From NCBI GenBank assembly GCA_005772955.1, contig SXID01000072.1, positions 1 through 42,143 of the forward strand: a stretch of 42,143 nucleotides of DNA, given 5' to 3'. The DNA comes from Planctomycetia bacterium (lineage in GTDB: Bacteria > Planctomycetota > Planctomycetia > Gemmatales > Gemmataceae). Shown piece by piece: positions 12,347-28,861 of this stretch (position 1 is its first letter; each line of letters begins with the position of its first letter). Under the pieces are notes generated by a model. It saw nothing but the letters and a program-made list of their open reading frames with translations, made no database searches and was not told the DNA's origin. The translations under genes and the position numbers were made by a program.

Positions 12347-13138
12347 ATGCCCGACGCCTTCTGGACATATGCGTTCCTGTGCGCCTGCGCGTTCCTCGCG
12401 GGGGTGATGAACTCCGTTGCGGGTGGGGGCACACTGCTCACGTTCCCCGCGCTCACGGCGCTGCTCACCGGGGCGATGGCGAACGCCACGAGCACCGTCG
12501 CACTCTTGCCGGGTTCGTTCGCGGGCGCGGTGGGTTACCGCAAGGAGTTGTGGGAGTGCCGGCGGTTCGTGTTCCGCATGATCGCACCGAGCATCGCGGG
12601 CGGGTTCCTCGGCGCCTGGCTGGTGGGAAAGAACAAGGAGTTGTTCGACGTGCTCGTGCCGTGGCTCATCCTCACGGCCGCAGTGCTGTTCGTGGTGCAG
12701 GCTCCGCTCTCGAAATGGGTGAAGCGACGGGCCGCGGTCGAAGGCGCGCAACCGCAACACCACGAACCCAACTGGGTGACGCAGGCGCTCGTGATCGGCT
12801 TTCAGTTCCTGGTCGCGGTGTATGGTGGGTATTTTGGCGCGGGGATCGGCATCCTCATGCTTAGCGCGCTGGGCTTCATGGGCGTGGGCGACATCCACCG
12901 CATGAACGCGGTGAAAACGTTCCTCGCGGCGTCGATCAACACCGCGAGCGTGGTGGTGTTTATTCGCGACGGTCTTGTTCAGTGGAACTACGCGCTCGCG
13001 ATGGCGGTGGCCGCGATCATCGGCGGCTACACCGGGGCGCGAGTTGCGCGCCGGTTACCCGCGAGTTACGTCCGCTATGCCGTCATCGTGATTGGCTTCG
13101 GATTGGCCGCGTACTACTTCGTCAAGAAGTACGCATAG
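12347..13138 (+). CDS. TSUP (TauE/SafE) family membrane transporter
   Basis: The 263-residue protein has about eight hydrophobic helices in two halves, each opening with the family repeat: AGVMNSVAGGGTLLTFPALT in the first half and AVYGGYFGAGIGILMLSALG in the second, followed by MNAVKTFLAASINTASVVVF. TSUP proteins are thought to export sulfite, sulfoacetate or similar anions, or to move sulfur compounds and copper-linked substrates. The substrate cannot be read from sequence. It converges on the copper ATPase gene and overlaps its last codons by 25 bases. TSUP members are often encoded near cbb3 oxidase genes, so a link to oxidase maturation is plausible. Confidence 0.85.
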   Translation: MPDAFWTYAFLCACAFLAGVMNSVAGGGTLLTFPALTALLTGAMANATSTVALLPGSFAGAVGYRKELWECRRFVFRMIAPSIAGGFLGAWLVGKNKELFDVLVPWLILTAAVLFVVQAPLSKWVKRRAAVEGAQPQHHEPNWVTQALVIGFQFLVAVYGGYFGAGIGILMLSALGFMGVGDIHRMNAVKTFLAASINTASVVVFIRDGLVQWNYALAMAVAAIIGGYTGARVARRLPASYVRYAVIVIGFGLAAYYFVKKYA

Positions 13139-15798
13139 AGTCGTTCGCAGAGCCACGTCCCCGCGAGCATCCCCGCGAGCATGCCGACCGTCATCCCCGC
13201 GAAGTTGGACGCGACTGCCGCAGTCATGTACGCCGTCGGAAACTGCGCCGCGCAGCATCCGCCCGCGAGCATCCCCAGCACCATGCCGACGTTACCACCG
13301 GTTAACATCGCGATCGAGTGACAGCCCGTTGTCGCTGGAAACTTGCCGAACCAGCGCATCGCGACGTTCGCGAACACCACCATGCCGACCCACATCCACG
13401 GCTTCCTCACGCCGCCTCGCATCGCTTCGACACACGCGCAGCACCCGTGATCGTGCAGCGCCGCGAAGCCGTTATCGGCCCACCAACCGAGCAGCATTCC
13501 GAGGTTACCAAGCGTGAGCATTCCGAAGCACATGTCCACCCCGTGCGGAGCCGCGTACCGGCGCCAGAGGCACGCGAGTGCGATTCCCGTGAGCGCGAAC
13601 ACAATTAGGGTAAGCGTGGCTGCGAGAGGTTCACGCAACGACACGAGGAGCAGGAGAAAGACGACACCTTGCAGCGCGAAGGCGGCGGCGTGGGTGAAGG
13701 CAAGACCTACGCCCCTCCAGATACCCCCCTCTACTGAAGGAAAGGGGGAGTTTGAAGCCGCTTGCGGCTTAGCCAGTATCCCCACGCGCGTGGACGAGAA
13801 TATCAGCGTGAGGCTCGACACCACCATCAGCAGCGCCGCGACAACGGGGTGCAGCACGCCCGACGCAGCGAGCGCCATCCCGATCAAGTTGTAAGCCACC
13901 GCGCGGGCCAAGTTCAGTCGCACGGCGCGCACCGCGTCGCGGCTGAGTTCGACCGCCCACGGGAGCGTGCGAAGGTCGGCACTGTACAGCGTGACCGGGG
14001 CTGCGCTCACCGCGAGGTCGGTCCCGCTCGACAGCGCGACCCCAACGTGCGCGACCGCAAGCGCGGAAGCGTCGTTGATGCCGTCCCCGACGAACAGCAC
14101 ACGCCCACCTTCCACGGCTGCGCGCTTGTCGTCGGGGAGCATTCCGCCGCGTGCGTGAGAGAGGCCGAGCGATTCCGCCCGTTCAGTCGCGTCACCGGTC
14201 AGTACTTCGACCGACAACCCAAGTTGCGCGAAGTGCGCGAGTGCTTGCGGTGTAGAATCGCGCAAACGTTCCACCAGCGAAGCGACTGCCACGAGTACGC
14301 CATTCCGTGCAACACAAACAACCTTCCCCTCACCCCCGTTTAGCGTGCGACCCGAAGGGGCGCCGATCCATTCCCCGACCCCAATCTTGATCTCGTGCCG
14401 CGTGCCGTTCACTTCCACCAGTTCCGCGACCACGCCGGAACCGGGCACGGCGACCAGCGACCCCACACGCGGTTCTTCGCCTCGCGCGAACGGGCGCGGC
14501 AATTCCGCGAACGGCTTCGCAATCGGGTGGTTGCTCTGCGCTTGCACAAGCGAAAGCCAGCCGAGCAGTTTCGCGCGTTCGTCGCCGGTCGCAGTCGTCT
14601 CGATGTCCACGAGCGCGAAGCGGTCTTCGGTCAGTGTCCCGGTCTTGTCGAACATCACGCGATCCACGGTTGCCAGGCGTTCGATGGCGTCGCCGCTCTT
14701 CACGATCACACCGCGTTCCGCGAGGCGGTTGATCGCGGACCAGATCACGACTGGCGTTGCCAGCCCGATCACGCACGGGCACGCGACCAGCAGCACCGAC
14801 ATCGCGTTGAACAGCCCGGCTTCCCACCCCAACGAGGTGAGGAACGTCCAGTATGTGAACGTGCCGAGTGCGACACACACCACCAAAGGCAGGAACCACC
14901 GACCCAAGCGGTCGGCGCGGCCTTGCAGTGACAACGGCTTGTCACGCACCTCTTCGACGGTCGCGAGCAAGCGGTCGATTTCGCGCTCGGTTCCACTCGC
15001 GGTCGCGGTGATGCGGAACGTCGCGTCGAAACTCGCGGAGCCAGCCAGCACGCGATCCCCCGGCCGGCGCACCACCGCAAACGGCTCGCCGCTCACAACC
15101 GCCTCCGACATGAACCCAACACCCTCGCGAATGATGCCGTCCACCGCGATCAGTTCGCCCGGATGCACTTCGACCACATCGCCGGGTCGCACCTCCGAAA
15201 CGGGCAACGGGCGAGTGTCGCCGGTTCCGTCCACGAGCCGGCACGCACAAAGCCGGTCACCCCACGCTCGCGAACTCGCGAGCGCCGCGGCTTTTGAACG
15301 TGCGCCGATCACCTTCCCGAGCGTGTAGACGACGAGCAGAACCGATACGACCTCGAAGTACACCTTCCCGCGCCCGGTGACGTGTGCTTGTAGCGATGCG
15401 CAGAGTGCGCCGGTCATGGTGAGGAGGAACAGCGCTTCGATGGTGAGCCGGCCTCGGCACAGTTCGCGGGCCGCTGTGCGAACGAGCGGCCCACCGAGCG
15501 ACAGCGCGACCAGCACCGTACCCGCGAAGATGCCCCACTGCGTGAAGGCGCGGACCGGAAGTGGGACATCGTCGTGGAGGTTCAGCGCGAGGCCGAAGAT
15601 CATCGACTGCCCAACGACCAGCACACCGAGACCAAGCCGCAAACCGACGCCACCGGGCTTCGAGCCAGTGTCGCACCTTCCGCGTGCGCACGATCGCTCG
15701 CCGAGGCGGAGGCACCCGAAGCAACAGTACACCGACCCCGCGCGGCCGGCGTGCCCGCTCGCGGTGATCGGCCCGTTACAGTTCGTGCAGGTTGGCAT
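13114..15798 (-). CDS. CcoI/FixI-like heavy-metal (copper) P-type ATPase with extra C-terminal membrane domain
   Basis: The 894-residue P1B ATPase pumps copper needed for cbb3 assembly, by family and position. The N-terminus is a Cys cluster (CTNCNGPI, then YCCFGCLRLGERSC), with no ordinary heavy-metal-associated domain. It has SGEP near 234 (actuator loop), the transport motif ACPCVIGLATP near 339, the phosphorylation site DKTGTLTED near 382, NHPIAKP (nucleotide domain) and GDGINDASAL near 569. All catalytic motifs are intact. Residues about 690-894 form an additional Met/Cys-rich membrane domain. It holds three related GN/SN-x-x-GM motifs (LGNLGMLLGWW, GGNVGMVLGML, ASNFAGMTVGML) plus CCAC and GCCAAQF. 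Two repeat fragments lie in frame inside the gene (14338-14364 and 13721-13774). Its 3' end overlaps the TSUP gene. Confidence 0.88.
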   Translation of the reverse strand: MPTCTNCNGPITASGHAGRAGSVYCCFGCLRLGERSCARGRCDTGSKPGGVGLRLGLGVLVVGQSMIFGLALNLHDDVPLPVRAFTQWGIFAGTVLVALSLGGPLVRTAARELCRGRLTIEALFLLTMTGALCASLQAHVTGRGKVYFEVVSVLLVVYTLGKVIGARSKAAALASSRAWGDRLCACRLVDGTGDTRPLPVSEVRPGDVVEVHPGELIAVDGIIREGVGFMSEAVVSGEPFAVVRRPGDRVLAGSASFDATFRITATASGTEREIDRLLATVEEVRDKPLSLQGRADRLGRWFLPLVVCVALGTFTYWTFLTSLGWEAGLFNAMSVLLVACPCVIGLATPVVIWSAINRLAERGVIVKSGDAIERLATVDRVMFDKTGTLTEDRFALVDIETTATGDERAKLLGWLSLVQAQSNHPIAKPFAELPRPFARGEEPRVGSLVAVPGSGVVAELVEVNGTRHEIKIGVGEWIGAPSGRTLNGGEGKVVCVARNGVLVAVASLVERLRDSTPQALAHFAQLGLSVEVLTGDATERAESLGLSHARGGMLPDDKRAAVEGGRVLFVGDGINDASALAVAHVGVALSSGTDLAVSAAPVTLYSADLRTLPWAVELSRDAVRAVRLNLARAVAYNLIGMALAASGVLHPVVAALLMVVSSLTLIFSSTRVGILAKPQAASNSPFPSVEGGIWRGVGLAFTHAAAFALQGVVFLLLLVSLREPLAATLTLIVFALTGIALACLWRRYAAPHGVDMCFGMLTLGNLGMLLGWWADNGFAALHDHGCCACVEAMRGGVRKPWMWVGMVVFANVAMRWFGKFPATTGCHSIAMLTGGNVGMVLGMLAGGCCAAQFPTAYMTAAVASNFAGMTVGMLAGMLAGTWLCERLYAYFLTK
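13721..13774. repeat. Dispersed repeat segment inside the copper ATPase gene
   Basis: ATACCCCCCTCTACTGAAGG, then AAAGGGGGAGTTTGAAGCCG and CTTGCGGCTTAGCC, closely matches the complement of half of the 17661-17793 element. It encodes AKPQAASNSPFPSVEGGIWR (about residues 675-692) between the ATPase core and the extra membrane domain. Confidence 0.75.
14338..14364. repeat. GTTTAGCGT-family segment inside the copper ATPase gene
   Basis: GTTTAGCGTGCGACCCGAAG followed by GGGCGCC matches the other GTTTAGCGT/CGACCCGAAGGGG repeats. In frame it encodes GAPSGRTLN (about residues 479-487) in the nucleotide-binding domain, a loop region. Confidence 0.65.
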
Positions 15799-15946: not shown

Positions 15947-16828
15947 TCACTTCTTCGGGGCCGGCGGATCCGCGTAATCGCGGGGGAACTTATCCAGCAG
16001 TTCCGCCGCCGTGACCGAGTCGCGTTTCCCGTCCTTTGTGCGAGCCGCACGCACGATGGCGGTTGTGATCGCGGGTTTCTTGTCGTCAGGGTCGGCCTTG
16101 TTCGACCACGTGTTGCGGACGTAGATCAGCACGCTCGCGATCTCGTAGTCCTTCAATTGCTCGGAGTGAGCCGGCATCGCCGCGACCCCCCAGGACGTTT
16201 TCGACACCACCGGCGATTTCACTTCAATCGGCCCTTTCAAACCGTACAGGACGATGCGTGCCAACCGCGGCGCCGCCGCCTGATCTCCACTGACCCAGTT
16301 GGAGCCGTCGAGCGGCGGGATGTTCTCCGCTGGCTTGCCGACGCCTTCCGGCAGGTGGCACGCGGCGCAAATCGCGGCGTACTTCTTGCTCCCGATCGCC
16401 TTCAGTTCCTCGACCGTCTGCGGGTCAGGCTCAGGGGCAGCCCCGACGACCGGCGTCGCCACTGGGTTTGCTTCGTCGAACACGTCGGCGCGGAAGTCGG
16501 CGGAGTTCGCCCCAATGTAGTACCCGCCCCACATGAGCAGCGCGCCGCACACGATCGCGACCCAGAACGGCACCGGCTCGAACCCGTCGCGCGGCTCGGC
16601 CTGTTCTCGCATCAACACGCCATGCATGCCCTGAACGGAATCGGAGCCGCCCGCGCCGGCTTCGTCGTGGCCCTCGGGGTTGTCGTCCACGCCGTCCGCG
16701 GTCAACATCACGGGGTCGTTCATCTGGGCCATTTGCGCACGGTGCAAATCCTGCACGGAGTCGCCACCGGTCGGAACCACCGGTGCGTCGGTGGAAATCG
16801 GGCCGTCGTTCGGGTTCGGCGTGCTCAT
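15947..16828 (-). CDS. ccoP: cbb3 oxidase cytochrome c subunit (CcoP-like, monoheme)
   Basis: The 293-residue protein has a long acidic, Asp/Gly-rich cytoplasmic N-terminus (about 1-85). One membrane helix follows (FWVAIVCGALLMWGGYYIG, about 88-106), then a periplasmic cytochrome c domain with a single heme site CAACHLPEG (near 155). A distal Met is probably in AAMPAHSEQL. Typical CcoP has two CxxCH motifs; only one is present here. By position it takes electrons from a donor cytochrome and passes them to CcoO. It overlaps the ccoO stop by four bases, so the two are coupled. The C-terminal extension after the heme domain (ITTAIVRAARTKDGKRDSVT) is not usual. Confidence 0.85.
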   Translation of the reverse strand: MSTPNPNDGPISTDAPVVPTGGDSVQDLHRAQMAQMNDPVMLTADGVDDNPEGHDEAGAGGSDSVQGMHGVLMREQAEPRDGFEPVPFWVAIVCGALLMWGGYYIGANSADFRADVFDEANPVATPVVGAAPEPDPQTVEELKAIGSKKYAAICAACHLPEGVGKPAENIPPLDGSNWVSGDQAAAPRLARIVLYGLKGPIEVKSPVVSKTSWGVAAMPAHSEQLKDYEIASVLIYVRNTWSNKADPDDKKPAITTAIVRAARTKDGKRDSVTAAELLDKFPRDYADPPAPKK

Positions 16829-17643
16829 TCCTTCGCCTCCGGCAACGGGATTTCAGCCTTCCGCAGAGCGAGCAAGTAAGCGACCAGCGACTCGGCGTCC
16901 GCGTTCGGAATCACCTGATACTCTTCTTCCGGCGTGGTGAGCCAGAACTCCAGCAACCGCTCCTTGCCTTCGGGCGTCTGGATGTCGATCGCTGCTGGCT
17001 GGCCGGTGGTGTACTGTGAGACGAGATCGTTTCCGCGGTTCGCGATGATCGCGTCCCACTGCTTCGCGCTGGGTCGCCACCGGTAGCCGGGATCGACGGT
17101 CCACTCGCGTCCCAGTGACAAGGCCTTGTCACTGCGACTGCCAGCGATCTTCTCGCGAGTGTAGAAGAACGCGAACGACGGCATGATGCTCCACGAGTTC
17201 GCGGATCGCGGGTTGAGCAGGTGCGTGTGGTGCCACGGCTCGGACGGATTCCTCACGCCGATGTTCGCGAGGTCCGGCCCGGTTCGCATGGTGCCGAGCA
17301 TTGTGGGGTTGTCGTAGATGTAATCGCGCGACACAGTGCGCCGCAGGCCGTAACTGCGCTTGATGTCGGCCCCGGTCTTGTACTCGCCGTTCGCGTCCCA
17401 CCAGCCGCCGAACTTCTCGCTGCGCACCTGCTGGGTATGGCAGTACATGCAGCCGTTGTTCTGGTACACCTTGCGCCCCGCGAGCGCCAGCCCTTGCAAC
17501 GGTTGCGGGTACGGCGTGTCGCCTTCTTCTTTCTGATACGGCTGTTCGGCGCCGAGTTGCCAGAACGGGAACACGACCAGCCCCAACCAACTCGACGAGA
17601 ACGTGAGCAGCGCACCCAGGAAGACGACCATCCCGCGATCCAT
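16825..17643 (-). CDS. ccoO: cbb3 oxidase monoheme cytochrome c subunit CcoO
   Basis: The 272-residue protein has an N-terminal membrane anchor (GMVVFLGALLTFSSSWLGLVVFP) and the heme site CMYCHTQQVR around residues 57-66, the classic CcoO signature followed by R and S residues. RTGPDLANIGVRNPSEPWHH and NSWSIMPSFAFF (distal Met) also match the family. The start at 17643 is fixed by GGAGG on the minus strand (17651-17655) seven bases upstream. A longer frame reads into the intergenic repeat. CcoO relays electrons from CcoP to the CcoN heme-copper centre. It lies between ccoN and ccoP, as in standard ccoNOP operons. Confidence 0.93.
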   Translation of the reverse strand: MDRGMVVFLGALLTFSSSWLGLVVFPFWQLGAEQPYQKEEGDTPYPQPLQGLALAGRKVYQNNGCMYCHTQQVRSEKFGGWWDANGEYKTGADIKRSYGLRRTVSRDYIYDNPTMLGTMRTGPDLANIGVRNPSEPWHHTHLLNPRSANSWSIMPSFAFFYTREKIAGSRSDKALSLGREWTVDPGYRWRPSAKQWDAIIANRGNDLVSQYTTGQPAAIDIQTPEGKERLLEFWLTTPEEEYQVIPNADAESLVAYLLALRKAEIPLPEAKE

Positions 17644-17660
17644 CTCAGATCCTCCGAAGA

Positions 17661-17793
17661 ACCTACCCCCCAACCCCCTCCCTGATGGGAAGGGGAGAAA
17701 AGCCGCTTGCGGCTTCGCGAGACGCGCGAGAGGACACTCGCGAATCCGCGAGCGGCTTCAAACTCCCCCTTCCCTTCAGGGAGGGGGGTAGGT
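17661..17793. repeat. 133-bp palindromic element between ccoN and ccoO
   Basis: The ends ACCTACCCCCC (17661-17671) and GGGGGGTAGGT (17783-17793) are perfect inverted repeats. The interior carries GCCGCTTGCGGCTTCGCGAG with its counterpart CTCGCGAATCCGCGAGCGGC. The element covers nearly the whole gap and supplies the last codons and TGA stop of ccoN. Fragments occur at 13721-13774, 11820-11866 and 36032-36056. Confidence 0.85.
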
Positions 17794-19248
17794 CTTTTGC
17801 TCCACCGATTCCACGAAGAACGTCGGACCGCCGCTGCGCTGCTTGCCCCACCCGGCCAGGTTCATCACGAACGAGATCGCGAACGCAACGTGCCCAGTCG
17901 TGAGCAACAGCCCCGCGAGCGACCGCGTCAGCCAGTGCGGCAAGAGGTAAGCGACGATCTTCGCGAACGGGATGTCCGGGTTGTTCATCATGCGGCCCTG
18001 CCACCACCCGCCGATCGAGAGCGCCACGAAGTACGTGGTGATGCCCACCGCTGCGCACCAGAAGTGGATGCGGATCAGCGTGCGGTTGGGCCACTCTCGC
18101 CCGGTGAGTCGCGGGACCATGTAGTAGAACAGGCCGAACATGATCATCGACACGAACGCGTACGCGCCGAGGTGTGCGTGTGCGACGATGTAGTGGGTGA
18201 AGTGTGTCGTCGCGCTCACATCCTTCAGCGCCATCAGCGACCCCTGGAAGCTCACCAGCGTGTACGAGATCGCACCGAACACGGTGAACCGCAAGGCCGG
18301 GCTGTACCGCAGCCGGTGGAAGTGGCCGAGAAGCGTCATGTGGTGGTTGATCGCCACCGCGAGCACCGGGATGAACATCATCATGCTGCCAACCGTGCTG
18401 GCGGTCGCGAGCCACGCGGGGATCGGGCCGCCAATCAGGTGGTGCATCCCCGCCCACGAGTAGAACAGCGCGAGCGACCAGAACCCGATGATGCTCAGGT
18501 AGTAGCTGTGAATCGGGCGGCCGATGATCTTCGGGATGAGGTAGTACGCGCTGCCCAGCGCGACCGGCGTGAACCACAGCCCCAGCACATTGTGCCCGAA
18601 CCACCAGTTCACGATCGGCTGCACCACGCCGACGGCGGGCGACCAAAAGATCATGAACTGCGCGACGAGATAGAGCCACGGGAACCAGAAGACCGCGCCC
18701 AGGAGGTACCACTGGGTGACGTACACGTGCGGCTCGCGTCGCCGCCGGAACACGGCCACGGTCCACGCGGACACGATCCCCAGCGCCGCGACAAAGAACG
18801 GCGGTGCGTACGGCGGTGCGTCGAGCCATTCCACCGACTGCCCGTCGCCGAGGATGATGCCAACCACCGCGAGGAACACGCCGATGTTCCAGAGCACGCC
18901 AGCGAGGTAGAGCATCTTCGGGTAGATCAGTTCGGCACGCGACAGCCGGCACATGAGCCACAGGCACGCGGAAACGGACGCGAGCGACGCCCAACCGATA
19001 CCGACCGCCTGGAGGTGCGCCATCCGCACGCGGCCGAAGGTGAGTTCCGCGCTCCCGGTGAAGAAATACGGGATGTGCAGTTTGACCGACGCGAGGAGCG
19101 CAAGCATCGACCCGGTGAGCAACCAGAACACCGCGCTGGACGCGAAGAACAGCACCGGCCCGCGGCACGACGCATCGATGGCGGCGCGCTCCGCCGCCGA
19201 CTTCACGCGGTCGTACTGGGGCGGCTCTGGTGCGGTCGTCACGGGCAT
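17776..19248 (-). CDS. ccoN: cbb3-type cytochrome oxidase catalytic subunit CcoN
   Basis: The 490-residue protein has at least twelve membrane helices. Ligands are visible for low-spin heme (RMAHLQ near residue 80), CuB (WWFGHNVLGL and the HH pair in YSWAGMHHLIGG) and the heme pair HFTHYIVAHAHLGAY. The latter matches the GHVHSGA-type motif of cbb3 rather than that of aa3 enzymes. The tyrosine in FWSLALFYSW is where the cbb3 cross-linked Tyr is expected. It reduces O2 to water and pumps protons. The ATG at 19248 (MPVTTAPEPP) is chosen because upstream codons translate a dispersed repeat. The final residues (KTYPPP) and the stop come from the repeat at 17661-17793. Confidence 0.95.
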   Translation of the reverse strand: MPVTTAPEPPQYDRVKSAAERAAIDASCRGPVLFFASSAVFWLLTGSMLALLASVKLHIPYFFTGSAELTFGRVRMAHLQAVGIGWASLASVSACLWLMCRLSRAELIYPKMLYLAGVLWNIGVFLAVVGIILGDGQSVEWLDAPPYAPPFFVAALGIVSAWTVAVFRRRREPHVYVTQWYLLGAVFWFPWLYLVAQFMIFWSPAVGVVQPIVNWWFGHNVLGLWFTPVALGSAYYLIPKIIGRPIHSYYLSIIGFWSLALFYSWAGMHHLIGGPIPAWLATASTVGSMMMFIPVLAVAINHHMTLLGHFHRLRYSPALRFTVFGAISYTLVSFQGSLMALKDVSATTHFTHYIVAHAHLGAYAFVSMIMFGLFYYMVPRLTGREWPNRTLIRIHFWCAAVGITTYFVALSIGGWWQGRMMNNPDIPFAKIVAYLLPHWLTRSLAGLLLTTGHVAFAISFVMNLAGWGKQRSGGPTFFVESVEQKTYPPP

Positions 19249-19281
19249 GTGGAGTGCGGCCAGGGTTTGAATCTCAATGTT

Positions 19282-19319
19282 CGTTTCGCGCGTGGCCCCG
19301 GCGGGGCCGACGCTAAACG
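19282..19319. repeat. GTTTAGCGT-family repeat between ccoS and ccoN
   Basis: CGTTTCGCGCGTGGCCCCGG followed by CGGGGCCGACGCTAAACG contains GGCCCC/GGGGCC with a three-base loop (19294-19308). It supplies the TAG stop of ccoS (19313-19315). Confidence 0.75.
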
Positions 19320-19552
19320 GCGGTAGGTTCACCAGGGCGCGGCGTCTTCCTCAACCTGGGCGGCATTCCGGGAAAGGCGTCGGTCGCCTCGCCGATGGGT
19401 TCGTCCGGACTGAAGATCGACTTCGCGCCGCGGTCGAAGTTGTCGAACTGGCCGTCGCGGAACGCCCAGCCGAGCGCGAGCGCGGCCGCCCCGCCGAACA
19501 GCACGATCGACCCAATGACGGTCGCAAAGAGAGCGATGTCGACCGCAGTCAC
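19313..19552 (-). CDS. ccoS: cbb3 oxidase assembly protein CcoS-like
   Basis: The 79-residue protein has one N-terminal helix (ALFATVIGSIVLFGGAAALALGWAF) followed at once by RDGQFDNFDRGAKSIFSPDE. This matches the CcoS signature (W-x-x-x-x-GQF-DD-D-x-x-x-x-x-I-L). CcoS is needed in other bacteria for inserting heme and copper into CcoN. The tail is longer than usual (PGMPPRLRKTPRPGEP). It starts inside the preceding gene (ATGA overlap 19549-19552) and its stop lies within a dispersed repeat. Its location in front of ccoN fits its role. Confidence 0.85.
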   Translation of the reverse strand: MTAVDIALFATVIGSIVLFGGAAALALGWAFRDGQFDNFDRGAKSIFSPDEPIGEATDAFPGMPPRLRKTPRPGEPTAV

Positions 19553-20002: not shown

Positions 20003-21259
20003 TCAAGGAGTCTCGTTCTCGTACTCAATCGTTTCGTTCAGGCGAGCGTCTCGAATCGGTATCAGCGGCAACCGCGTGAAGCCCCATGTGGCGGACAGCA
20101 GCACCACGCTGAACATGCACACCGGCGCAACCACGTCGAGCCAGTGGAAGTGAACCGTGTCCTGATGTAGCACCGGCAACACTTGCCAGTAGAGATCATA
20201 TGCGTGCATCACCAATATCCACGCGCTGCTGAGCGCGAGCCAAAAGGGTGACCGCTTGTGCGCTCGCGGGATGAGCAGGAAGAACGGCACCACGAAGGAG
20301 AGGATCGGGAGCAGAATCGAGAGGGTGTACCAACTTCCGTTGCGGCGGAGCAGGTAGAACTGCGTTTCTTCCGGCACGTTCCCATACCAGATCAGGAAGT
20401 ACTGCGCGAACGCGATGTACGCCCAGAACACCGTGAACCCGAACATGATCTTCGCGACATCGTGCAGGTGTTCCATCGTGATCGTGTTCCGCAAGAACCC
20501 CGCGGCGCGGAGCGACAGCACGACGAGTACGACCGTCGCGAGCGACCCACGAATACCGCCGGCCCAGAAGTACACGCCGAAGATGGTGCTGAACCACGAG
20601 TATTGCAGGCTCATCAGGATGTCGAACGCGAAGAACGTGCTGGTAAGGCCAAGCAGCGCGACACCCGACGGCGCCCACCATTGCATTTTTCGCGTGAGCG
20701 CGATACCACCCACGGCGTCCTGACTTACCGACCATTTCCGCATCGCGACCGAGTAGCCAATCCAGACCGCGAAGTAGATCGCGAGCCGTGCCAGGAAGAA
20801 CCACGTGTTGAAGTACACATGCTTCACGTGCCACAGGTGCTTGAGGTGTTCTTCCTTCGGGGCTTCGGCGTGAACGAAACTGTACCACGCGTGCAGTTTG
20901 CCTGTGAGTGTGCCGACCAGCACCGGGATGAACAGCACCGCGAGCGGCAGGATCGCGCGGTTGATGTTCTCGAAGACTCGCCGCAGTCCCACCGACCAAC
21001 CCGCGTCCGCAACGTGGTGGATCATGGTCCAGAACAGCGCACCGAGCGCGATGTCGAGCGCGAACACGTAGCCGAACAGGTACGAGTGGTAGAACTGTTT
21101 CGGGTTCGCGAACAGACCGACGAGGAGCAGCAGCCCGGAGCCCAGCGCGACTCCGGTGAGGATGCGAACGCCGCCCGCGAGCGCGTCACCGACGGGCGCG
21201 ACGCTGTCCGGCAACCCGGCGGGGTAGGTATCGTCGTTGGGGATGCTCGCGCTGCTCAT
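20003..21259 (-). CDS. actF: Alternative complex III subunit ActF (quinol-site membrane subunit)
   Basis: The 418-residue protein has about ten hydrophobic helices, as in ActF of Rhodothermus and Flavobacterium complexes. Visible segments include GSGLLLLVGLFANPKQFYHS, SYLFGYVFALDIALGALFWTM, LPLAVLFIPVLVGTLTGK, and FWAYIAFAQYFLIWYGNVPE with ETQFY, which resembles the ActF quinone-side helix. It pairs with ActC as the second NrfD-like subunit; no cofactor motif is expected. It lies downstream of actE with a palindromic repeat in the gap, and upstream of the small membrane gene. Homology is inferred from helix pattern and gene order. Confidence 0.85.
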   Translation of the reverse strand: MSSASIPNDDTYPAGLPDSVAPVGDALAGGVRILTGVALGSGLLLLVGLFANPKQFYHSYLFGYVFALDIALGALFWTMIHHVADAGWSVGLRRVFENINRAILPLAVLFIPVLVGTLTGKLHAWYSFVHAEAPKEEHLKHLWHVKHVYFNTWFFLARLAIYFAVWIGYSVAMRKWSVSQDAVGGIALTRKMQWWAPSGVALLGLTSTFFAFDILMSLQYSWFSTIFGVYFWAGGIRGSLATVVLVVLSLRAAGFLRNTITMEHLHDVAKIMFGFTVFWAYIAFAQYFLIWYGNVPEETQFYLLRRNGSWYTLSILLPILSFVVPFFLLIPRAHKRSPFWLALSSAWILVMHAYDLYWQVLPVLHQDTVHFHWLDVVAPVCMFSVVLLSATWGFTRLPLIPIRDARLNETIEYENETP

Positions 21260-21274
21260 CGGACCGTGTTTCTT

Positions 21275-21333
21275 GTAGGACAGGCTTCCAGCCTGTCATT
21301 GCTCCAAAACGACAGGCTGGAAGCCTGTCCTAC
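21275..21333. repeat. GTAGGACAGGCTTCC palindromic repeat between actE and actF
   Basis: A perfect 23-bp inverted repeat has arms 21275-21297 and 21311-21333 (core GTAGGACAGGCTTCCAGCCT) and a 13-base loop. The right arm supplies the actE TAG stop (21330-21332). It belongs to a different sequence family from the neighbouring repeats. Confidence 0.9.
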
Positions 21334-22190
21334 TTTAGCGGGTTCCCGTAAGCGAACTGCAACTCGCGCACATACGCCACGATCGCCCACCGATCCAGCA
21401 CGTCCTTGATCTGGTGGCCGTAGCCGGTCATCGCGCCTTTGCCGTTCACGACTGTGTTGAACAATTGCCCGTCGGCCTGGGCCTGAACCTCGGGCGTGAG
21501 GACGTTCGCGGGCGGTACACTCAGACCGTAAGCACCCACGATGCCGTAAGCGAGTTCGCCACCACCGCCACGCCCGCTCGTGCCGTGGCACACCGCGCAG
21601 TTCCGGTTGAACTGCACCTGTCCGCGTTTCAGGAGCGGTTCCCACCCGCCGGCCTTCTCGACCGCGAGCGGCGGGATGTTGTTCACGTAGTAGCCCTCGC
21701 CGGTCAGCTTGCCGGCCTCCCAAGTCGGTCCTGTGGGCACACCGTCGGCGCCCTTCGCGGTGGCGTTGGCGATGCCAAAGTAAAAACGTTTGTCAGCCTT
21801 CAGGAAGTCCGGGTTCGGAGTGTCGTGGCCGCCCGCGTCGGCTGCGTAGTCGGTGCCGTCGAACGGAACCGTGTCCATCGGCGGCATCCGGTTGCTGCGG
21901 CCATCCGCGAAGTACTTGCTTTGGCCCTGGCTCGTGTACTTCGCCTGGTACTTCATGTCGAGGAAAATGTGCCACGGGCGCGAGTCGCTCTTCTGCCCGC
22001 GCACGCCCAGCACCACTGCCGCCAACCCGAACATGCCGAACATCGCGGTGAACATGTACAGATATGACATCACGCGTCCGCGTTTACCGAGCCACGACGC
22101 GAACACGGTCGCGCCGAGCAGCAGCACGGCGGTGCCGACGATCACGGCCAGCACCGTGTTCATGAACGCGTTCGGGTCGATCGAGTACAT
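21330..22190 (-). CDS. actE: Alternative complex III cytochrome c subunit ActE (monoheme)
   Basis: The 286-residue protein has two N-terminal helices (MNTVLAVIVGTAVLLLGATVFAS and VMSYLYMFTAMFGMFGLAAVVLG). A periplasmic region follows with one heme site, CAVCHGTSGRGGGG (near residue 195), and a later YGHQIKDVLDRWAIVAYVREL typical of class I cytochromes. ActE carries electrons from the ActA hemes or FeS clusters toward the terminal oxidase. It sits between the fused actCD gene and actF, matching the order in other ACIII operons. The loop RSNRMPPMDTVPFDG contributes Met residues that may coordinate the heme iron. Confidence 0.9.
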   Translation of the reverse strand: MYSIDPNAFMNTVLAVIVGTAVLLLGATVFASWLGKRGRVMSYLYMFTAMFGMFGLAAVVLGVRGQKSDSRPWHIFLDMKYQAKYTSQGQSKYFADGRSNRMPPMDTVPFDGTDYAADAGGHDTPNPDFLKADKRFYFGIANATAKGADGVPTGPTWEAGKLTGEGYYVNNIPPLAVEKAGGWEPLLKRGQVQFNRNCAVCHGTSGRGGGGELAYGIVGAYGLSVPPANVLTPEVQAQADGQLFNTVVNGKGAMTGYGHQIKDVLDRWAIVAYVRELQFAYGNPLK

Positions 22191-22230: not shown

Positions 22231-24369
22231 TTACGCCTCCATCACCGCCACGTGCTTGCCGCCGAGCGACGCCAGAAACGCTTGCGTTTCATCCGGGTTG
22301 AACTTTGCGTCCTGTGCCTCGATCGTCAGAAAGAACCCGCCCTGCGTACTCCGACCGAACGTCGGGTGGCTGTCCAGCGGATGGAAGAACCGCGGCAAGC
22401 CACACAGCCCGAAAAGCGAGAACAGCGTGAAGAATCCCGCGAACAGCACCGTCATCTCGAACAGCACCGGCACGAACGCTTCCCACGATCGGTACTCCTT
22501 CCCGCCCACGATGGTCGGGTAGTAGTACGCCATCAGGTAGAACTGCAATGACGCGGCGGTGGCCAGACCGGTGAGCGCGCCCGCGAGCGTGAACAGCGGC
22601 AACCGACTCCGCGTCCGGCCGATCGCCTCCTTCATCCCGTGGACGTAGAACGGCGTCCAGGCGTCCACGTGTTTGTAGCCGGCGGCAGTGGTCTTCTTCG
22701 CGGCTTCGAGCAGATCACTTCCGTTGGCAAACTCGGCGACCGCGCCCCACGGCTTCCCGGTCCCGCCCGGTGTCGGGATGAACGGCGGTATCGGCTCGGT
22801 GTGCGGTTTGACATCGGTAGCCGGGCACGACGGCAGACCATACGACGCGGCCAACGCGTGATCAGACGTCGGGTACTGCCCGTCCTCGCCCTTAAGGTAG
22901 CTCCCGTTCACATGGAACTCGGAAGGCGGGATGGGGTGCCCCGCAGCCTCTTCGTCGAGGTGAGAGTAGTACGGGTTCGCCATCGGCAGCACGCCCTTCA
23001 CCTCGGCGATGGCGACCATCGGCAGCAACCGGATGAATAGCAGCGTGAACGTGAAGAACAGCCCGAAGTCCCCGATCATTTGCAACCAGTCCACCCAGGT
23101 CGGATGGAACTGCCCCCACGACCCGGGCAAGAAGTCGTGATGGAGCGATTGCACGATGATCACGAACCGCTCATACCACATCCCGACGTTCACAAACGTC
23201 ACAATGATGAGCACGAACCACGGCGTTTGACGGCACCATCTAATCCAGAACACTTGCGGGATGAAAAGATTACACGTCATCATCACCCAGTAGGCCCACG
23301 TATAGTCTCCATCGAACGCGCGGTTCTTGAACGTCTGCCACTCATACGGGTTCCCGGAGAACCACGCGATGAACAGCTCCATGCAGTACGCGTACCCGAC
23401 CAGCGTCCCGGTCGCGAGGATGAACTTACACATCACGTCGATGTGTTTGATCGTCACCATGTTTTCCAGCCTATATACGGCCCGTGCCGGGATCATACAT
23501 TGGAGCACCATCGCGAACCCGCCGAAGATCGCCCCCGCGACGAAGTACGGCGGGAAAATCGTCGTGTGCCACCCCGGAATCAACGACGTGGCGAAGTCGA
23601 AGCTCACCACCGAGTGAACGCTCAACACCAGCGGGGTGCTGAGACCCGCGAGCATCAAATACGCGACTTCGTAGTGGCGCCAGTGACGCGTGCTGCCGCG
23701 CCAACCGAGCGACAGGAAGCCGAATATCATCTGGCGCGTGCGACTCTTGGCCCGGTCGCGTAGCGTGCCGAGGTCGGGGAGGAGTCCGATGTACCAGAAG
23801 ATAAGTGAGATTGTGAAATACGTTGAGATCGCGAAGAAGTCCCACAATAGCGGCGAACGGAAGTTCTGCCAGATATGGTTCGCGTTGGGGAGCGGGATCG
23901 AGAACCACACGTACCAGAACCGCCCGACGTGGATGCCGGGATAGATGAACGCGCAGATCACCGCGAACAGCGTCATCGCTTCACTGAAGCGATTGATTGA
24001 CGTGCGCCACTTCTGCCGGAACAAAAATAGAATCGCGGATATAAGTGTGCCGGCGTGCCCGATGCCGATCCAGAACACGAAATTCGTGATATCGAACGCC
24101 CACGCGACCGGGACGTTGCTGCCCCACACGCCGACACCGGTCGAGATGAGGTACGTCGCGGCCAGCACGCCGCCGCACAGCAGCGAGGACGTGATGAGCA
24201 GCGCGGGCCACCACCAGTACGGTTGCGGCTTCTCCGTGATTTCGCTGATCTGCTCGGAAACGGAATCGTAGTCGGCCGGACCCCACACGAGCGGGATGCG
24301 CGGCAGCGGGTCCGGGAACTTCGGCCCCGTGTGCGCGTCGTGCGTTTCGTGTGGAGTCGTCTCAGCCAT
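22231..24369 (-). CDS. actC: Alternative complex III subunits ActC and ActD fused
   Basis: The 712-residue protein joins two families. Residues 1 to about 470 are NrfD-like ActC with about ten helices ([60 protein letters not shown]). A linker of about 90 residues follows. Residues about 545-712 match ActD (DUF3341): [40 protein letters not shown] and two helices ([40 protein letters not shown]). ActC holds the quinol-oxidation site. ActD closes the membrane part and does not bind a cofactor. In the best-known ACIII operons these are separate genes. No stop, ribosome site or frameshift separates the halves here, so this is a real fusion. Confidence 0.93.
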
Positions 24370-24393: not shown

Positions 24394-24471
24394 TCGTTTA
24401 GCGTTGGTCCCGCAGGCGCCAGGCCACGCAGAGCGACCCCTTCGGGGTCGCCGCGAAACGTCGCTCGTTTA
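24394..24471. repeat. GTTTAGCGT-family repeats between actB and actCD
   Basis: CGTTTAGCGTTGGTCCCGCA starts the left unit. GCGACCCC (24433-24440) and GGGGTCGC (24444-24451) form an 8-bp stem, and GTTTAGC follows at 24467. The last supplies the TAA stop of actB (24469-24471). Confidence 0.75.
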
Positions 24472-27400
24472 GCCCACCATGTCCTGATTAATGTTCCTTA
24501 CTCTGGGCAAGTAGCTCGTGCGCGGTTTCGTATTCAATTCGCCGAGCAACAAGTATTCGCTCTCCTTCAGTTTCTGCTTCGACACCTTGCTGTTCGGGTC
24601 GAGCAAGTTGCCGAAGGTGATCGCCTGCGAGGGGCACGCGCTCTGACACGCGGTCACGATCACCCCGTCCGGGACGATCACGCGACCGATCGCGTCGAGG
24701 TCGTAGCCGGCCGCGAGTGGTTTCTTCGGCTTCTTGTACGACGACACCGAACCGTCCGCGGTCCTGAACGTGCTATCGGTTTCGATGGTGCGGCGGTCTT
24801 GCGCCACTTCCGCGGCGGCGATCTTCGCGCCGTATTTTCCGCGTTCGATGCGCTGAACGCAGTACGTGCATTTCTCCATCACGCCGCGCATGCGGACGGT
24901 CACGTCCGGGTTCTTCTGCATCTTCAGCGTTTCGGGCACGCCGCTCTCCGCGAAGCTCATGCCGCCGCTCGCGAACGGTGTGGGTACGCGAAGTTCGTCG
25001 AGCTTCCGCTTGTTGAAGTCGAACCAGTTGAACCGCCGCACCTTGTACGGGCACGCGTTCGAGCAGTACCGCGTGCCGATGCACCGGTTGTAGACTTGCA
25101 GGTTCAAGCCTTCGGGGCTGTGAACGGCCGCGTTCACGGGGCACACTTGTTCGCACGGGGCCGCTTCACAATGGACGCACGCGACCGGTTGCGACACGAT
25201 TCGCGGGTTCTCTTCGGCGGTCTCGCCGTTGGGCGACGAGAAGTAGCGGTCGATGCGGATCCAGTGCAGTTCGCGGTTGCGTTTGACCTCGTGCTTACCG
25301 ACAACCGGTATGTTGTTCTCGGCCTGGCACGCGAGCATGCACGCGGTGCAACCGGTGCAAGCCGAGAGGTCGATCACCATTCCCCACTGGAACTGACTGT
25401 CGAGTAACTCCGGGCGCGCGAGGTCGAGCGGGAAGCGTTCTTGCTTCACGCGTGCCGGGGCCGGCGGTTGCTGCTTGTTCCCGTACCCGCCCTGGAACTC
25501 CTTCTTCAGCATCGCTTCCGTGATGTGGCCGTCGGGCGGAATGCCGATCTTCGGCTCCTGCTTGTCCTCAAAATCTGGGTTCTTGTGTGCATCGACGTAC
25601 TTGAACGGGTCGATGGGACGCGTCTTCCCACGGGGCTTGTGCTCACCAACCTTGTACTCGCGCACGATGTCGCGGCCTTCGGGGATGACGCCGTGTTCTT
25701 GCGTGGTCACGAGGTCCGCGCGGCGGCCGGTCTTCTTCAGTTTGCAGTAGGTCGCGGTGTGTAGTGAAGTGGAACGACGGAGCGGGAACACGTCCGTTCC
25801 GCCGCCGTGGGGCACGTGCGAAATCCGCATGTCACCGTACTGCCCGAAGCTGAGCGCGACCGAGTAATCCGCCTGACCCGGCAGCACGAACGCGGGCACG
25901 TTGATCGCCGATTCGCCCAGCCGCACTTCGACCACGTCGCCCTGTACGATGCCGAACTCCTTCGCGGTCGCTGGGCTGACGAGCGCGGCGTTGTCCCACA
26001 CCAGTTTCGTGATCGGGTCCGGCATCTCCTGGAGCCACGGGTTCATCGCGAATCGCCCGTCAGCGAGAGCGTAGGAAGCGTGAAAGGTAATCTCAATCGC
26101 GTCCCGCGACGGAGCGTCCGCGGGTTGGTAAGTCGCGATTACCTCGGCCACGCGAGCCTTGTTCGTGCTCACCTCTTTTGGCTTGCGAACCTTCTCATCC
26201 GGTCGCGCGAAGCCGAGCGACTTCGCCTTGTCCGCGTCGAGGGGGAAGAACCCGACTTGCTTGTAGCGGTTGAACGCCTCATCAAACTCCGGCGCCGTGA
26301 GCGAGATGCCGCTGCGTTCCGCGAACGCCCTTCGCACGTAGCCGTACCCAGCCTTCTGCGCGGCGCTGAAAGAAGCCACCGGTTTGCCGTCCGCGCCCTG
26401 CGCCTGCGTGAGCAGCGAGAGCACTTCCAGCATGGTGCGACCGCCGCGCGCGGGCGGGGCCACGTCGTCGCCACCGCTCTTGCCGCTGTTCAGTGGTGCG
26501 ATGAGCGGTTGCACGCAACACAGCGAACCGTCGCTGGCTTCGGTGTCACCCCACCCTTCGAGGAAATGCGCGAGCGGCAGGTGCCAGTCGCACTTCTCGG
26601 ATGTGTGATCGAAGAACAGCCCGAGCCGGATCTTCTGCGGAACCTTCTGCAACTCTTCCGCGAAGCGCAGGTCGGCGGGTGCGTTGAACACCGGGTTTCC
26701 GCCAACGATAAGCAGCGTGCTAACGTGGCCCACCGCCATCTCGCCGACGAGGTCCGTCAGCGACTTGTCAAGCAGTCCGGGCGGTGGGTCGCGGAACTCG
26801 GCCAGGCCCGCGGCGTAGTTGCCAAGCGCGTCATTTAATGCGTGAGCGAGGGCGTGAACCCACAGCGGCTGTCGTGGGCCAACAACAATGAGGCTCTTGC
26901 CAGCGTGTTCGGCGAAGTCCTTCGCTACCGCGAGCACCCATCTCTCCGGGAATGCGGTCTTGCCGGGCGTGATATCCGGCACCGCGTCCAACTTCTTGAG
27001 TTTCGCCGCGTGCGTGGTCTGAAGTTCCTTCGCAAGCGCGAGCAGGTACGCGCCCACCTGCGACGCCGGGAGCCGCAACCGGTGATCCGCCATAGTTCCG
27101 GTCACCGTGTACGTCGATTCCACGACGTACAAGCGATTCATCGCGTCGCTCTTCCGCTTGCTCGCGAAGCCGCGCGAATGAAAGATGCTATCCCCCTCGT
27201 TGCCGAGGAAGTCGGCGTCGAGCGCGAGAACGCGATCCGCCTTGTCGAAACGGTAGCGCGCCACCAACTTCGCGCCAAACGCCGCTTCCGCGCCCTTGAG
27301 GGTTTCGCTCGTATCGACGGCTTCGTAGCTGTGCCACGACGCGAGCGGGAGTTTGGCCTTGACCGCTTCGCGCAGCGCCATCACCGATGGCGAAGGCGCC

Positions 27401-28005
27401 TGCTCCGTCAGGATGTAGAAGCCCTTGCCTTTCTCCTTGAGCAACTTCTCAGCTTCGCCGCGCGCAAATCGGTCGAAGTCTTCCCACTTCCGCGCGGCGC
27501 GACCTTCCATCACGCCGGGGTACTTGTCCGACATCACGCGATCGGGGCTGTAGAGGTCGAGGATGGACGCTTGCGCTCGCGCGTCGGTGCTGCCGAGGCT
27601 ACACGGGTGTTGCGGGTTGCCTTCAATCTTTGTGGGCCGCCCGTCGTGACTCTCCACGAGCACGGGGATCGCGCCGCTGGCGCGGGGAATGCTCGTTGCG
27701 TAGAAGGTGGGTTTGCCAGGTGAGATGTGACCAATCTGCCCGTCTGGCACAACGGAGAAGGGGAGAATCTGGATATCGGGTCGGCGGCACCCCGCCAAAC
27801 CCGCGAGGCCGAGCGCCGCGGCCGAGATCGCCAGGAATTTACGCCGGTTCAGGTCCGCGGCTTCGGGGTCGTCATCGAGCGGTTCCGCTTCGCCGAGTTG
27901 GTCGTACACGTTGGCGAATCCGGGGAACTCTTCCGACGCGAACGCCCGGAACTCTGGCGTGTCCGCCAGTTGCTCGAGGCTGCGGTAGTAGGATTGCTGG
28001 TCCAT
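24469..28005 (-). CDS. actB: Alternative complex III subunit ActB (molybdopterin-like and iron-sulfur domains)
   Basis: The 1178-residue protein starts with an ActB-type leader (SLEQLADTPEFRAFASEEFP), then a twin-arginine-like NRRKFL (residues 53-58), a hydrophobic stretch and a lipobox-like LAGC (70-73). Roughly residues 80-790 are a molybdopterin-enzyme-like domain (ActB1), which in characterised ACIII carries no Mo cofactor. Residues about 880-1130 are a four-cluster ferredoxin domain (ActB2): CTGCTACMLACQAENN, CVHCEAAPCEQVCPVNAA, CIGTRYCSNACPYKVR, CTYCVQRI and CQSACPSQ. ActB passes electrons from quinol to the ActA and ActE hemes. It follows actA after a 56-base gap that contains a palindromic repeat. 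Confidence 0.95.
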   Translation of the reverse strand: MDQQSYYRSLEQLADTPEFRAFASEEFPGFANVYDQLGEAEPLDDDPEAADLNRRKFLAISAAALGLAGLAGCRRPDIQILPFSVVPDGQIGHISPGKPTFYATSIPRASGAIPVLVESHDGRPTKIEGNPQHPCSLGSTDARAQASILDLYSPDRVMSDKYPGVMEGRAARKWEDFDRFARGEAEKLLKEKGKGFYILTEQAPSPSVMALREAVKAKLPLASWHSYEAVDTSETLKGAEAAFGAKLVARYRFDKADRVLALDADFLGNEGDSIFHSRGFASKRKSDAMNRLYVVESTYTVTGTMADHRLRLPASQVGAYLLALAKELQTTHAAKLKKLDAVPDITPGKTAFPERWVLAVAKDFAEHAGKSLIVVGPRQPLWVHALAHALNDALGNYAAGLAEFRDPPPGLLDKSLTDLVGEMAVGHVSTLLIVGGNPVFNAPADLRFAEELQKVPQKIRLGLFFDHTSEKCDWHLPLAHFLEGWGDTEASDGSLCCVQPLIAPLNSGKSGGDDVAPPARGGRTMLEVLSLLTQAQGADGKPVASFSAAQKAGYGYVRRAFAERSGISLTAPEFDEAFNRYKQVGFFPLDADKAKSLGFARPDEKVRKPKEVSTNKARVAEVIATYQPADAPSRDAIEITFHASYALADGRFAMNPWLQEMPDPITKLVWDNAALVSPATAKEFGIVQGDVVEVRLGESAINVPAFVLPGQADYSVALSFGQYGDMRISHVPHGGGTDVFPLRRSTSLHTATYCKLKKTGRRADLVTTQEHGVIPEGRDIVREYKVGEHKPRGKTRPIDPFKYVDAHKNPDFEDKQEPKIGIPPDGHITEAMLKKEFQGGYGNKQQPPAPARVKQERFPLDLARPELLDSQFQWGMVIDLSACTGCTACMLACQAENNIPVVGKHEVKRNRELHWIRIDRYFSSPNGETAEENPRIVSQPVACVHCEAAPCEQVCPVNAAVHSPEGLNLQVYNRCIGTRYCSNACPYKVRRFNWFDFNKRKLDELRVPTPFASGGMSFAESGVPETLKMQKNPDVTVRMRGVMEKCTYCVQRIERGKYGAKIAAAEVAQDRRTIETDSTFRTADGSVSSYKKPKKPLAAGYDLDAIGRVIVPDGVIVTACQSACPSQAITFGNLLDPNSKVSKQKLKESEYLLLGELNTKPRTSYLPRVRNINQDMVG

Positions 28006-28061: not shown

Positions 28062-28727
28062 CTACCTGTGGCACCCCTGGCAGTGCATCGGCGGGACCAC
28101 CTTCAGATCCTTCTGGATCGCCGCGCCGACATCGCTCACGGTCTTCCCGCCTTCGGGCTTCCACTTCAGGTTGGTCACGTCCTTCACGTCGCGCAGGTGT
28201 GCGTGCGGGTCGGCGTGGCACTGCAAGCACCAGCCCATCGTGAGCGGTTTGTCGTGCCGCACGACCGCCATCTCGTTCACCTGACCGTGACACGACACGC
28301 ACGACACGCCCTTGTTGACGTGGACCGCGTGGTTGAAGTACGCGTACTCCGGGAGTTTGTGAACCTTCTTCCACTCCACCGGGCGCCCCGTGTCGAAGCT
28401 CGTGCGCACCGGAGCCAGGAGCGGGCTGTTGCCTTTCACATTCGCTTTTTTAGGATTGTGGCAGTTCATGCAAGTTTGCGAACTGGGCACGCTCGCGTGT
28501 GGTCCTTCAAACACACTTTGGTGACAGTAAGCGCAGTCCATGCCGAGCTTACCAGCGTGCAATTCGTGCGAGAACGGCACCGGCTGTTCCGGTGTGTAGC
28601 CGACACGCGTGTAACTCGGCAGCGCGTAGTAGCACCACCCCGTAACGACGAGCGCGACCGTGACCGCCAAGCCGATACCGGCCTGGCGCACGTGACCGTC
28701 GAGTGATCGCGAGAAGATGGCGGGCAC
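28062..28727 (-). CDS. actA: Alternative complex III pentaheme cytochrome c subunit ActA
   Basis: The 221-residue protein has an N-terminal anchor (AGIGLAVTVALVVTGWCYYALP) and exactly five heme sites: CAYCH (65-69), CMNCH (86-90), CVSCH (143-147), CLQCH (167-171) and CQGCH (216-220). Five is the number in ActA of Rhodothermus. Additional His residues (HELHAGK, HAVHVNK, HAHLRD) are available as distal ligands. The start is a GTG at 28727 with GGAG upstream. It is the first gene of the respiratory cluster. An 18-bp palindrome and a possible promoter lie directly upstream (28762-28819), so transcription of the cluster may start here. Confidence 0.94.
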   Translation of the reverse strand: MPAIFSRSLDGHVRQAGIGLAVTVALVVTGWCYYALPSYTRVGYTPEQPVPFSHELHAGKLGMDCAYCHQSVFEGPHASVPSSQTCMNCHNPKKANVKGNSPLLAPVRTSFDTGRPVEWKKVHKLPEYAYFNHAVHVNKGVSCVSCHGQVNEMAVVRHDKPLTMGWCLQCHADPHAHLRDVKDVTNLKWKPEGGKTVSDVGAAIQKDLKVVPPMHCQGCHR

Positions 28728-28761
28728 GCTCGCGCTCCCAGAGATCAGCCGAAATGCGACT

Positions 28762-28779
28762 TTGTGAAACTTTTCACAA
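28762..28779. promoter_or_regulatory. Rex-like (or CRP-like) operator upstream of actA
   Basis: TTGTGAAACTTTTCACAA is a perfect palindrome around a two-base centre (CT). It fits the Rex operator form TTGTGAA-N4-TTCACAA exactly, and also the CRP form TGTGA-N6-TCACA. It ends 34 bases before the actA start. If transcription starts about seven bases beyond the -10 box at 28790-28795, the site lies at roughly +4 to +21, where a repressor would block. Confidence 0.65.
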
Positions 28780-28789
28780 TCTCATCGGA

Positions 28790-28819
28790 ATCATACGAAC
28801 AGCGACAACCAACTGGCAA
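28790..28819 (-). promoter_or_regulatory. Possible sigma-70-type promoter for the act-cco cluster
   Basis: On the minus strand TTGCCA (28814-28819) and TATGAT (28790-28795) are separated by 18 bases. The hexamers are close to the general bacterial consensus. The start point is not known. Confidence 0.4.
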
Positions 28820-28827
28820 GTCCTGTC

Positions 28828-28857
28828 GTTTCGCGTTCGCCCCTTCGGGGTGAAGCG
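28828..28857. repeat. GTTTCGCGTTCGCCCC repeat after the aldo/keto reductase gene
   Basis: GTTTCGCGTTCGCCCCTTCG followed by GGGTGAAGCG is a GTTTAGCGT-family unit with an imperfect stem. It ends four bases from the reductase stop and could act as a terminator before the act promoter. Confidence 0.65.
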
Positions 28858-28861
28858 TGCC

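Follow-up and report, generated by a model that had tools for sequence, protein, structure and literature searches.

A probable Rex operator ahead of the alternative complex III/cbb3 cluster and a predicted Rex regulon of oxidative phosphorylation in Gemmataceae

Introduction

A short inverted repeat at 28762-28779 of the window, the whole 42,143-nucleotide contig of a Gemmata-type planctomycete of the family Gemmataceae analysed here, is very probably a Rex operator controlling the alternative complex III (ACIII)/cbb3 cluster that starts with actA. Judging from related sites elsewhere, the operator belongs with high probability to a Rex regulon of oxidative phosphorylation that spans much of the family. 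Rex operators as such are of a known kind; the ACIII target and the planctomycete group were not found described in the literature searched. That Rex binds here, which way it acts and how it responds to NADH are presumed from studied Rex proteins.

The operator and the gene cluster behind it

The operator sequence, TTGTGAAACTTTTCACAA, was found where a preliminary description of this DNA had reported a palindrome, and it consists of two perfect 8-bp arms flanking two bases (CT on the plus strand, AG on the minus strand). Because these central bases are not self-complementary, the claim of an 18-bp perfect palindrome holds for the arms and fails for the whole 18 bp. The proposed fit to the Rex operator pattern, the inverted repeat TTGTGAA-N4-TTCACAA, was borne out, as every specified base of the published consensus is matched with 0 mismatches; the longer form TTGTGAAA-NN-TTTCACAA is likewise matched with 0 mismatches. 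On the minus strand, the layout reads TTGCCA-18-TATGAT, 10 nt, TTGTGAAAAGTTTCACAA, 34 nt and the GTG of actA, the start codon given in the ORF tool listing. The promoter that had been placed at 28790-28819 was recovered as the sole promoter-like site in a scan of 28600-29000 (28819-28790, minus strand; 10/12 matches, shuffle mean 0.1). Since the -10 box ends at 28790, the predicted transcription start lies near 28783 (minus strand). The features of the region are as follows.

28814..28819, minus strand: predicted -35 hexamer TTGCCA (18-nt spacer), from the promoter scan and the act-locus comparison
28790..28795, minus strand: predicted -10 hexamer TATGAT, from the promoter scan
28762..28779, minus strand: probable Rex operator (predicted transcript positions about +5 to +22)
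28062..28727, minus strand: actA, multihaem cytochrome c subunit of alternative complex III (Pfam Cytochrome_C7)
24469..28005, minus strand: actB, TAT-variant molybdopterin-like and 4Fe-4S fusion subunit (profile matches)
22231..24369, minus strand: actC-actD fusion, NrfD-like membrane domain and a clear ActD domain (Pfam NrfD and ActD)
21330..22190, minus strand: actE-like cytochrome c (profile match)
20003..21259, minus strand: 418-aa ORF at the place of actF (position alone)
17776..19332, minus strand: ccoN-like, cbb3-type oxidase subunit I (under the NCBIfam ccoN cut-off)
16825..17673, minus strand: ccoO-like, FixO (profile match)
15947..16828, minus strand: cytochrome c, weakly ccoP-like (profile match)
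13114..15798, minus strand: heavy-metal P-type ATPase (profile match), downstream of the cbb3-like genes

The QrcA-like match of ActA falls under the curated cut-off. Pfam and NCBIfam searches gave no match for the 418-aa ORF, a putative actF judged by its position in the gene order.

In the proposed mechanism, NAD+-bound Rex would occupy the operator when NADH is low, just past the start of the TTGCCA-18-TATGAT transcript, and would block RNA polymerase start-up or escape, so that the ACIII/cbb3 cluster is repressed. A rise of NADH under limited respiration would make Rex release its site, and the cluster would be transcribed. The genes for complex I (nuo) and ATP synthase (atp), which carry the two other strong sites of this genome, would be transcribed along with it.

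Rarity of the site

Short inverted repeats are common, and at a tolerance of up to three mismatches 0.78 matches to the motif are expected in the window, so that only the 0-mismatch fit is telling there. At that tolerance 28762-28779 is the sole match, and the second-best 18-mer of the window has 5 mismatches to TTGTGAAANNTTTCACAA. A first-order Markov model built from 120,532 bases of the same genome (64% GC) and applied to 5,925,703 bases gives 0.0004 expected copies of the 16-base motif per genome and 0.008 of the 14-base motif; the latter is found at two places with 0 mismatches and at one with 1. With up to two mismatches allowed, 14 places match against 4 for the reversed motif. An origin of the palindrome by chance, with no function attached, was rejected on account of this rarity, of the retention of the site at 17 actA loci despite a drifting spacer, and of the excess of family sites over the reversed control described below; it has next to no probability.

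Identity of the regulator

The operator also fits the CRP pattern TGTGA-N6-TCACA, which led the preliminary description to leave the regulator unsettled. The half-sites do fit TGTGA/TCACA directly, but any perfect Rex site fits this pattern, so the match is not specific, and the genome favours Rex. A search for a rex gene, suggested at the outset, yielded exactly one: the Rex HTH family has a single match in the genome, on contig C111. Several NCBIfam Rex models match the encoded protein above their cut-offs (at best 232 bits against 217), and among the NCBIfam equivalogs one of the higher-scoring Rex models lies above its cut-off. Nearly full-length matches were obtained to eight Rex sequences of the PDB (E 3e-35 to 1e-43). 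In an alignment to Thermotoga maritima Rex, whose operator contacts are named in the available part of PMC8836258, Arg12, Arg48, Arg60, Gly61 and Tyr64 are kept, Lys49 is replaced by Arg and Ser52 by Ala.

For a CRP/FNR-family protein, which would respond to cAMP, oxygen or nitrosative signals, the outcome was the reverse. HTH_Crp_2 had no match in the draft genome (278 contigs) and was positive in 14/14 control genomes, and no CRP/FNR protein was found in these contigs. Two cNMP-binding matches belong to an ABC-transporter-like fusion protein and to an Fe-S protein, both lacking HTH_Crp_2. Furthermore, the arms of the palindrome reach TTGTGAAA/TTTCACAA with a free centre, as Rex sites do. CRP/FNR identity was rejected on the missing HTH_Crp_2 match and the different nature of the cNMP-binding proteins, and we regard it as highly improbable. 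With rex present and no CRP/FNR HTH found, the ambiguity resolves in favour of Rex on genomic grounds.

The regulon in the genome and across the family

Within the genome itself, only three places match with up to one mismatch: the act site, a site preceding nuoA-B-C-D, and a site preceding a small gene (sub-threshold ATPase_gene1 match), atpI, atpB and further genes of the atp operon. The suggested search for further copies of the palindrome ahead of respiratory genes was thus successful, at nuoA and atp in this genome and at nuo, atp, act, Rieske/bc and ndh in relatives. Autoregulation of rex is common though not universal; on the 6.5-kb contig that carries rex the best site has 4 mismatches, and no good operator was found there. 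A second ActA paralogue is encoded in the same genome (L181:1790-2611, contig C267 of G000; 43% identity), with no Rex-like site upstream (best, 5 mismatches).

The family survey covered 95 genomes with the 16-base motif at up to one mismatch and with the reversed motif as a control. It gave 99 sites in 50 genomes, against a single site for the control; these are raw genome counts, uncorrected for shared ancestry. As assigned by the following gene, 78 of the 99 sites precede respiration genes, namely nuoA (32), atp (21), actA (18, in 17 genomes), the Rieske gene (6) and type II NADH dehydrogenase (1), and the other 21 fall outside this assignment. The site at type II NADH dehydrogenase is L154:1501-1518 (G074). 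Extra Rex-like palindromes away from recognised respiratory genes occur in G016 (L119, L120 and L121, embedded in similar repeated sequence), G021 (L124-L126) and G023 (L129-L132), and Rex-like sites also precede sigma-factor genes in G028 (L099) and G051 (L107).

Sites go together with the rex gene, which was detected in 58 of the 95 genomes. Those with up to one mismatch are present in 42 of the 58 rex-bearing and in 8 of the 37 rex-less genomes. The association is sharper at nuo, where the analysis took in 86 genomes out of the 92 in which NuoA was matched, the other six having a weak match only (G005, G007, G008, G025, G048, G066). Leaders with an operator-like site (up to 4 mismatches) number 53 of 54 among rex-bearing genomes and 10 of 31 among rex-less ones, again uncorrected for ancestry and with G029 (82 bp upstream) excluded. 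The lone rex-bearing exception, G016, has only 174 bp of upstream DNA.

Fourteen genomes carry sites, yet neither an HMM nor a Rex-protein search, the latter matching both positive genomes, found rex in them. Eight of these have a site with up to one mismatch anywhere, and six have one at nuo only, with 2-4 mismatches. They weigh against a simple one-to-one reading of site and rex, and since 7 of the 14 are 90-100% complete, incomplete assembly does not surely explain all of them. In G068, G082 and G094 the site lies away from recognised respiratory genes and may be due to chance. Another regulator sharing the motif could account for the sites in such genomes, but nuo sites track rex in the proportions given above, and a number of the genomes lacking rex either are incomplete or belong to a genus with rex-bearing members (G019, G025, G046, G061, G064); we give this explanation a slim chance.

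The six Rieske sites stem from six genomes of one genus, g28 (L143, L144, L147, L148, L149, L180), where the operator lies directly before the Rieske gene; an ActA search matched none of the seven genomes of this genus. In another family, Rex-like operators are found about 0.75-0.95 kb upstream of a Rieske gene (L352, L355, L358, L360).

Operator position at actA and atp loci

Thirty actA loci were examined, from among the listed ActA matches (one of them, L031, without upstream DNA). A site with up to one mismatch lies upstream in 17, and is perfect in 14. The arms are constant and the central two bases vary (AG, CA, GG, GT, CT, TT, TA). In 12 of the 17 loci, a -35 box of the TTGCC-/TTGTC-type is followed after 18 nt by a TAxxAT -10 box ending exactly 10 nt before the operator; for the other five the promoter scan yields other pairs or no good ones. 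This retained promoter, which puts the operator just past the predicted start, upholds the initial proposal that the palindrome lies where a repressor would act. The act target is not universal, as no site was found at four actA loci with 71-79% identity (G088, G090, G091, G092) and that of G014 has 4 mismatches. Among 80 named ActA relatives, some with little upstream DNA, 10 have a site with up to one mismatch within 500 bp upstream, all of them planctomycete records, and the other 70 have no upstream site even at up to three mismatches. Named records with an ActA identity of at least 70% number 16, of which 11 are Gemmata/Gemmataceae and the other five also planctomycetes.

At the atp operon the arrangement differs. 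In 19 of 21 atp loci (L003:1501-1518 and, in relatives, L111, L113, L134, L141 and others), the operator is followed, 7-8 nt after its end, by the -35 box of a promoter-like pair, which reads exactly TTGACT-16-CACAAT in 12 loci. This predicted position is not the usual one for a repressor, and it counts against the preferred reading. Rex might repress atp through upstream contacts of the polymerase, or might activate it. The distance of 7-8 nt to the -35 box makes atp the best case for the wider idea that bound Rex activates some promoters. Against it, the operator at actA follows the -10 box, in the classical position of a repressor, and Rex of Streptomyces avermitilis represses atp, though its site takes in the -35 region instead of lying upstream of it (PMC5355995, available part). 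Activation is accordingly assigned a small probability, and repression remains the preferred effect. Within one genus, AtpB is either 39-41% or 87-92% identical to the AtpB of the present genome (L111, L113, L114, L115 against L003, L134, L135), with nearly the same operator before the divergent atpB genes, the pattern that an exchange of the operon with retention of its switch would leave.

A terminator-like hairpin next to the operator at nuo

The nuo leaders have a further element. An operator-like site is present in 63 leaders, and 51 of these have a hairpin (at least 6/7 pairs) just upstream of it. The distance from hairpin base to operator was scored at 17 nt in 47 of the 63, a score biased towards 17 because this spacing was tried first; better evidence comes from the gap histogram. 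When gaps of 9-149 nt were scanned in 64 leaders, T-run hairpins were found at gaps of 13-21 nt, with 46 leaders at 17, and single cases at four larger gaps (one hairpin may count at several adjacent gaps). Hairpin-bearing leaders include L110, L136, L127, L089 and L081; in L110 the operator is at 1578-1595 on the minus strand with the hairpin immediately upstream. The 12 leaders lacking the hairpin include those of the present genome and its near relative G024.

The stem varies in a compensatory manner: its third pair is TA in 27 leaders, TG in 10, CG in 9, GC in 3, AT in 1 and unpaired in 1. Among 37 leaders whose 3' arm is other than GTCGAGG, pairing is seen in 21, where shuffling gives a mean of 11.8 and at most 18. 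The T-run is usually interrupted. In 46 of the 47 hairpin-scored leaders, a promoter-like pair (7-10/12 matches, commonly TTGACG-16-TACTAT) ends 6-32 nt before the hairpin, these being the best pairs per 80-nt stretch, taken without a shuffle control. Several leaders leave so little room between operator and start codon (for example 20 nt in G019 and 24 nt in G022) that any transcript begun at that promoter has to cross the terminator. Other nuo leaders have, as read by eye, a -10-like TACAAT after the operator, which could act as a second promoter. An Rfam search of six nuo loci returned no family.

Across the phylum, the combination of terminator and operator was found in 4 of 392 genomes against 2 for the reversed control and is thus at chance level there. 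In one of the four, G463, the pattern precedes nuoA. In the family that contains G463, terminator and operator occur in 6 of 7 genomes, with 0 for the control; three of the nine places, in three genomes, precede nuoA, and at four a Rieske gene follows after about 0.75-0.95 kb. The hairpins of the three nuoA leaders have shorter stems, as read by eye.

These leaders make it conceivable, though somewhat doubtful, that Rex control of complex I goes beyond a promoter block and works by forcing or licensing an intrinsic terminator, in Gemmataceae and apparently in another family of its class. Rex would lie directly in the path of a polymerase that pauses in the T-run; Rex and terminator might then act jointly, and the NADH state would decide between termination and read-through.

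Relation to known systems

Ravcheev et al. 2012 is reportedly the main comparative study of Rex and the origin of its generalised consensus. That consensus, TTGTGAANNNNTTCACAA, as quoted in the available part of PMC5317091, is the same as the one found here, and the repression of NADH-oxidising functions at low NADH/NAD+ agrees with the effect proposed here. The main text of RegPrecise 3.0, as far as available (PMC3840689), contains no word starting with 'Planctomyc'.

The closest comparison is S. avermitilis, where, according to the accessible part of PMC5355995, Rex binds and represses nuo, atp, cyd and rex, and the respiratory targets comprise nuo, atp, cydABCD, rex-hemACDB, hppA and ndh2. 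Its search motif is also TTGTGAANNNNTTCACAA, the nuo and atp operons are targets as they are predicted to be here, and the footprint measured at cydA1, -3 to +25, has a geometry like that of the predicted actA site. Unlike in S. avermitilis, the alternative complex III/cbb3 genes are predicted targets here, and the contig with rex lacks a good site. In Desulfovibrio, Rex co-regulates Rnf and sulfate-reduction genes (PMC4215793, in part, citing Ravcheev 2012). There, as predicted here, Rex presides over respiratory complexes, and a reference title in PMC4215793 indicates kinship between ACIII and the Qrc complex of sulfate respiration; no statement on Qrc itself as a Rex target was found in the available text of that paper.

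Interconversion of terminator palindromes and factor sites is discussed in a figure legend of PMC2965389. Compared with the attenuators and roadblocks treated in PMC2965389, PMC10310618 and PMC4132739, the nuo leaders of the relatives join a leader terminator, as in attenuators, to an operator past the start, as in roadblocks. No leader with a terminator and a repressor operator a set distance apart was found in the available parts of these three papers. Similarly, no report of Rex control of ACIII, or of Rex in planctomycetes, was found in the literature searched, which most subscription papers lie outside, and in the accessible portions of papers naming both 'Rex' and 'alternative complex III' no link between the two was found.

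Conclusions

Taken together, the sites point to a single NADH-sensing switch that would, in one family of planctomycetes, cover complexes I and III as well as ATP synthase. The switch seems to track function, being present at actA in two ACIII genera and at the Rieske gene in the genus in which no ActA was found. If the arrangement at nuo is what it appears to be, a DNA-bound repressor would work there via a built-in terminator, and the same sensor would reach ACIII, the bc complex and ATP synthase through simpler arrangements. The nuo leaders may represent a testable new mode of repressor action through a terminator.
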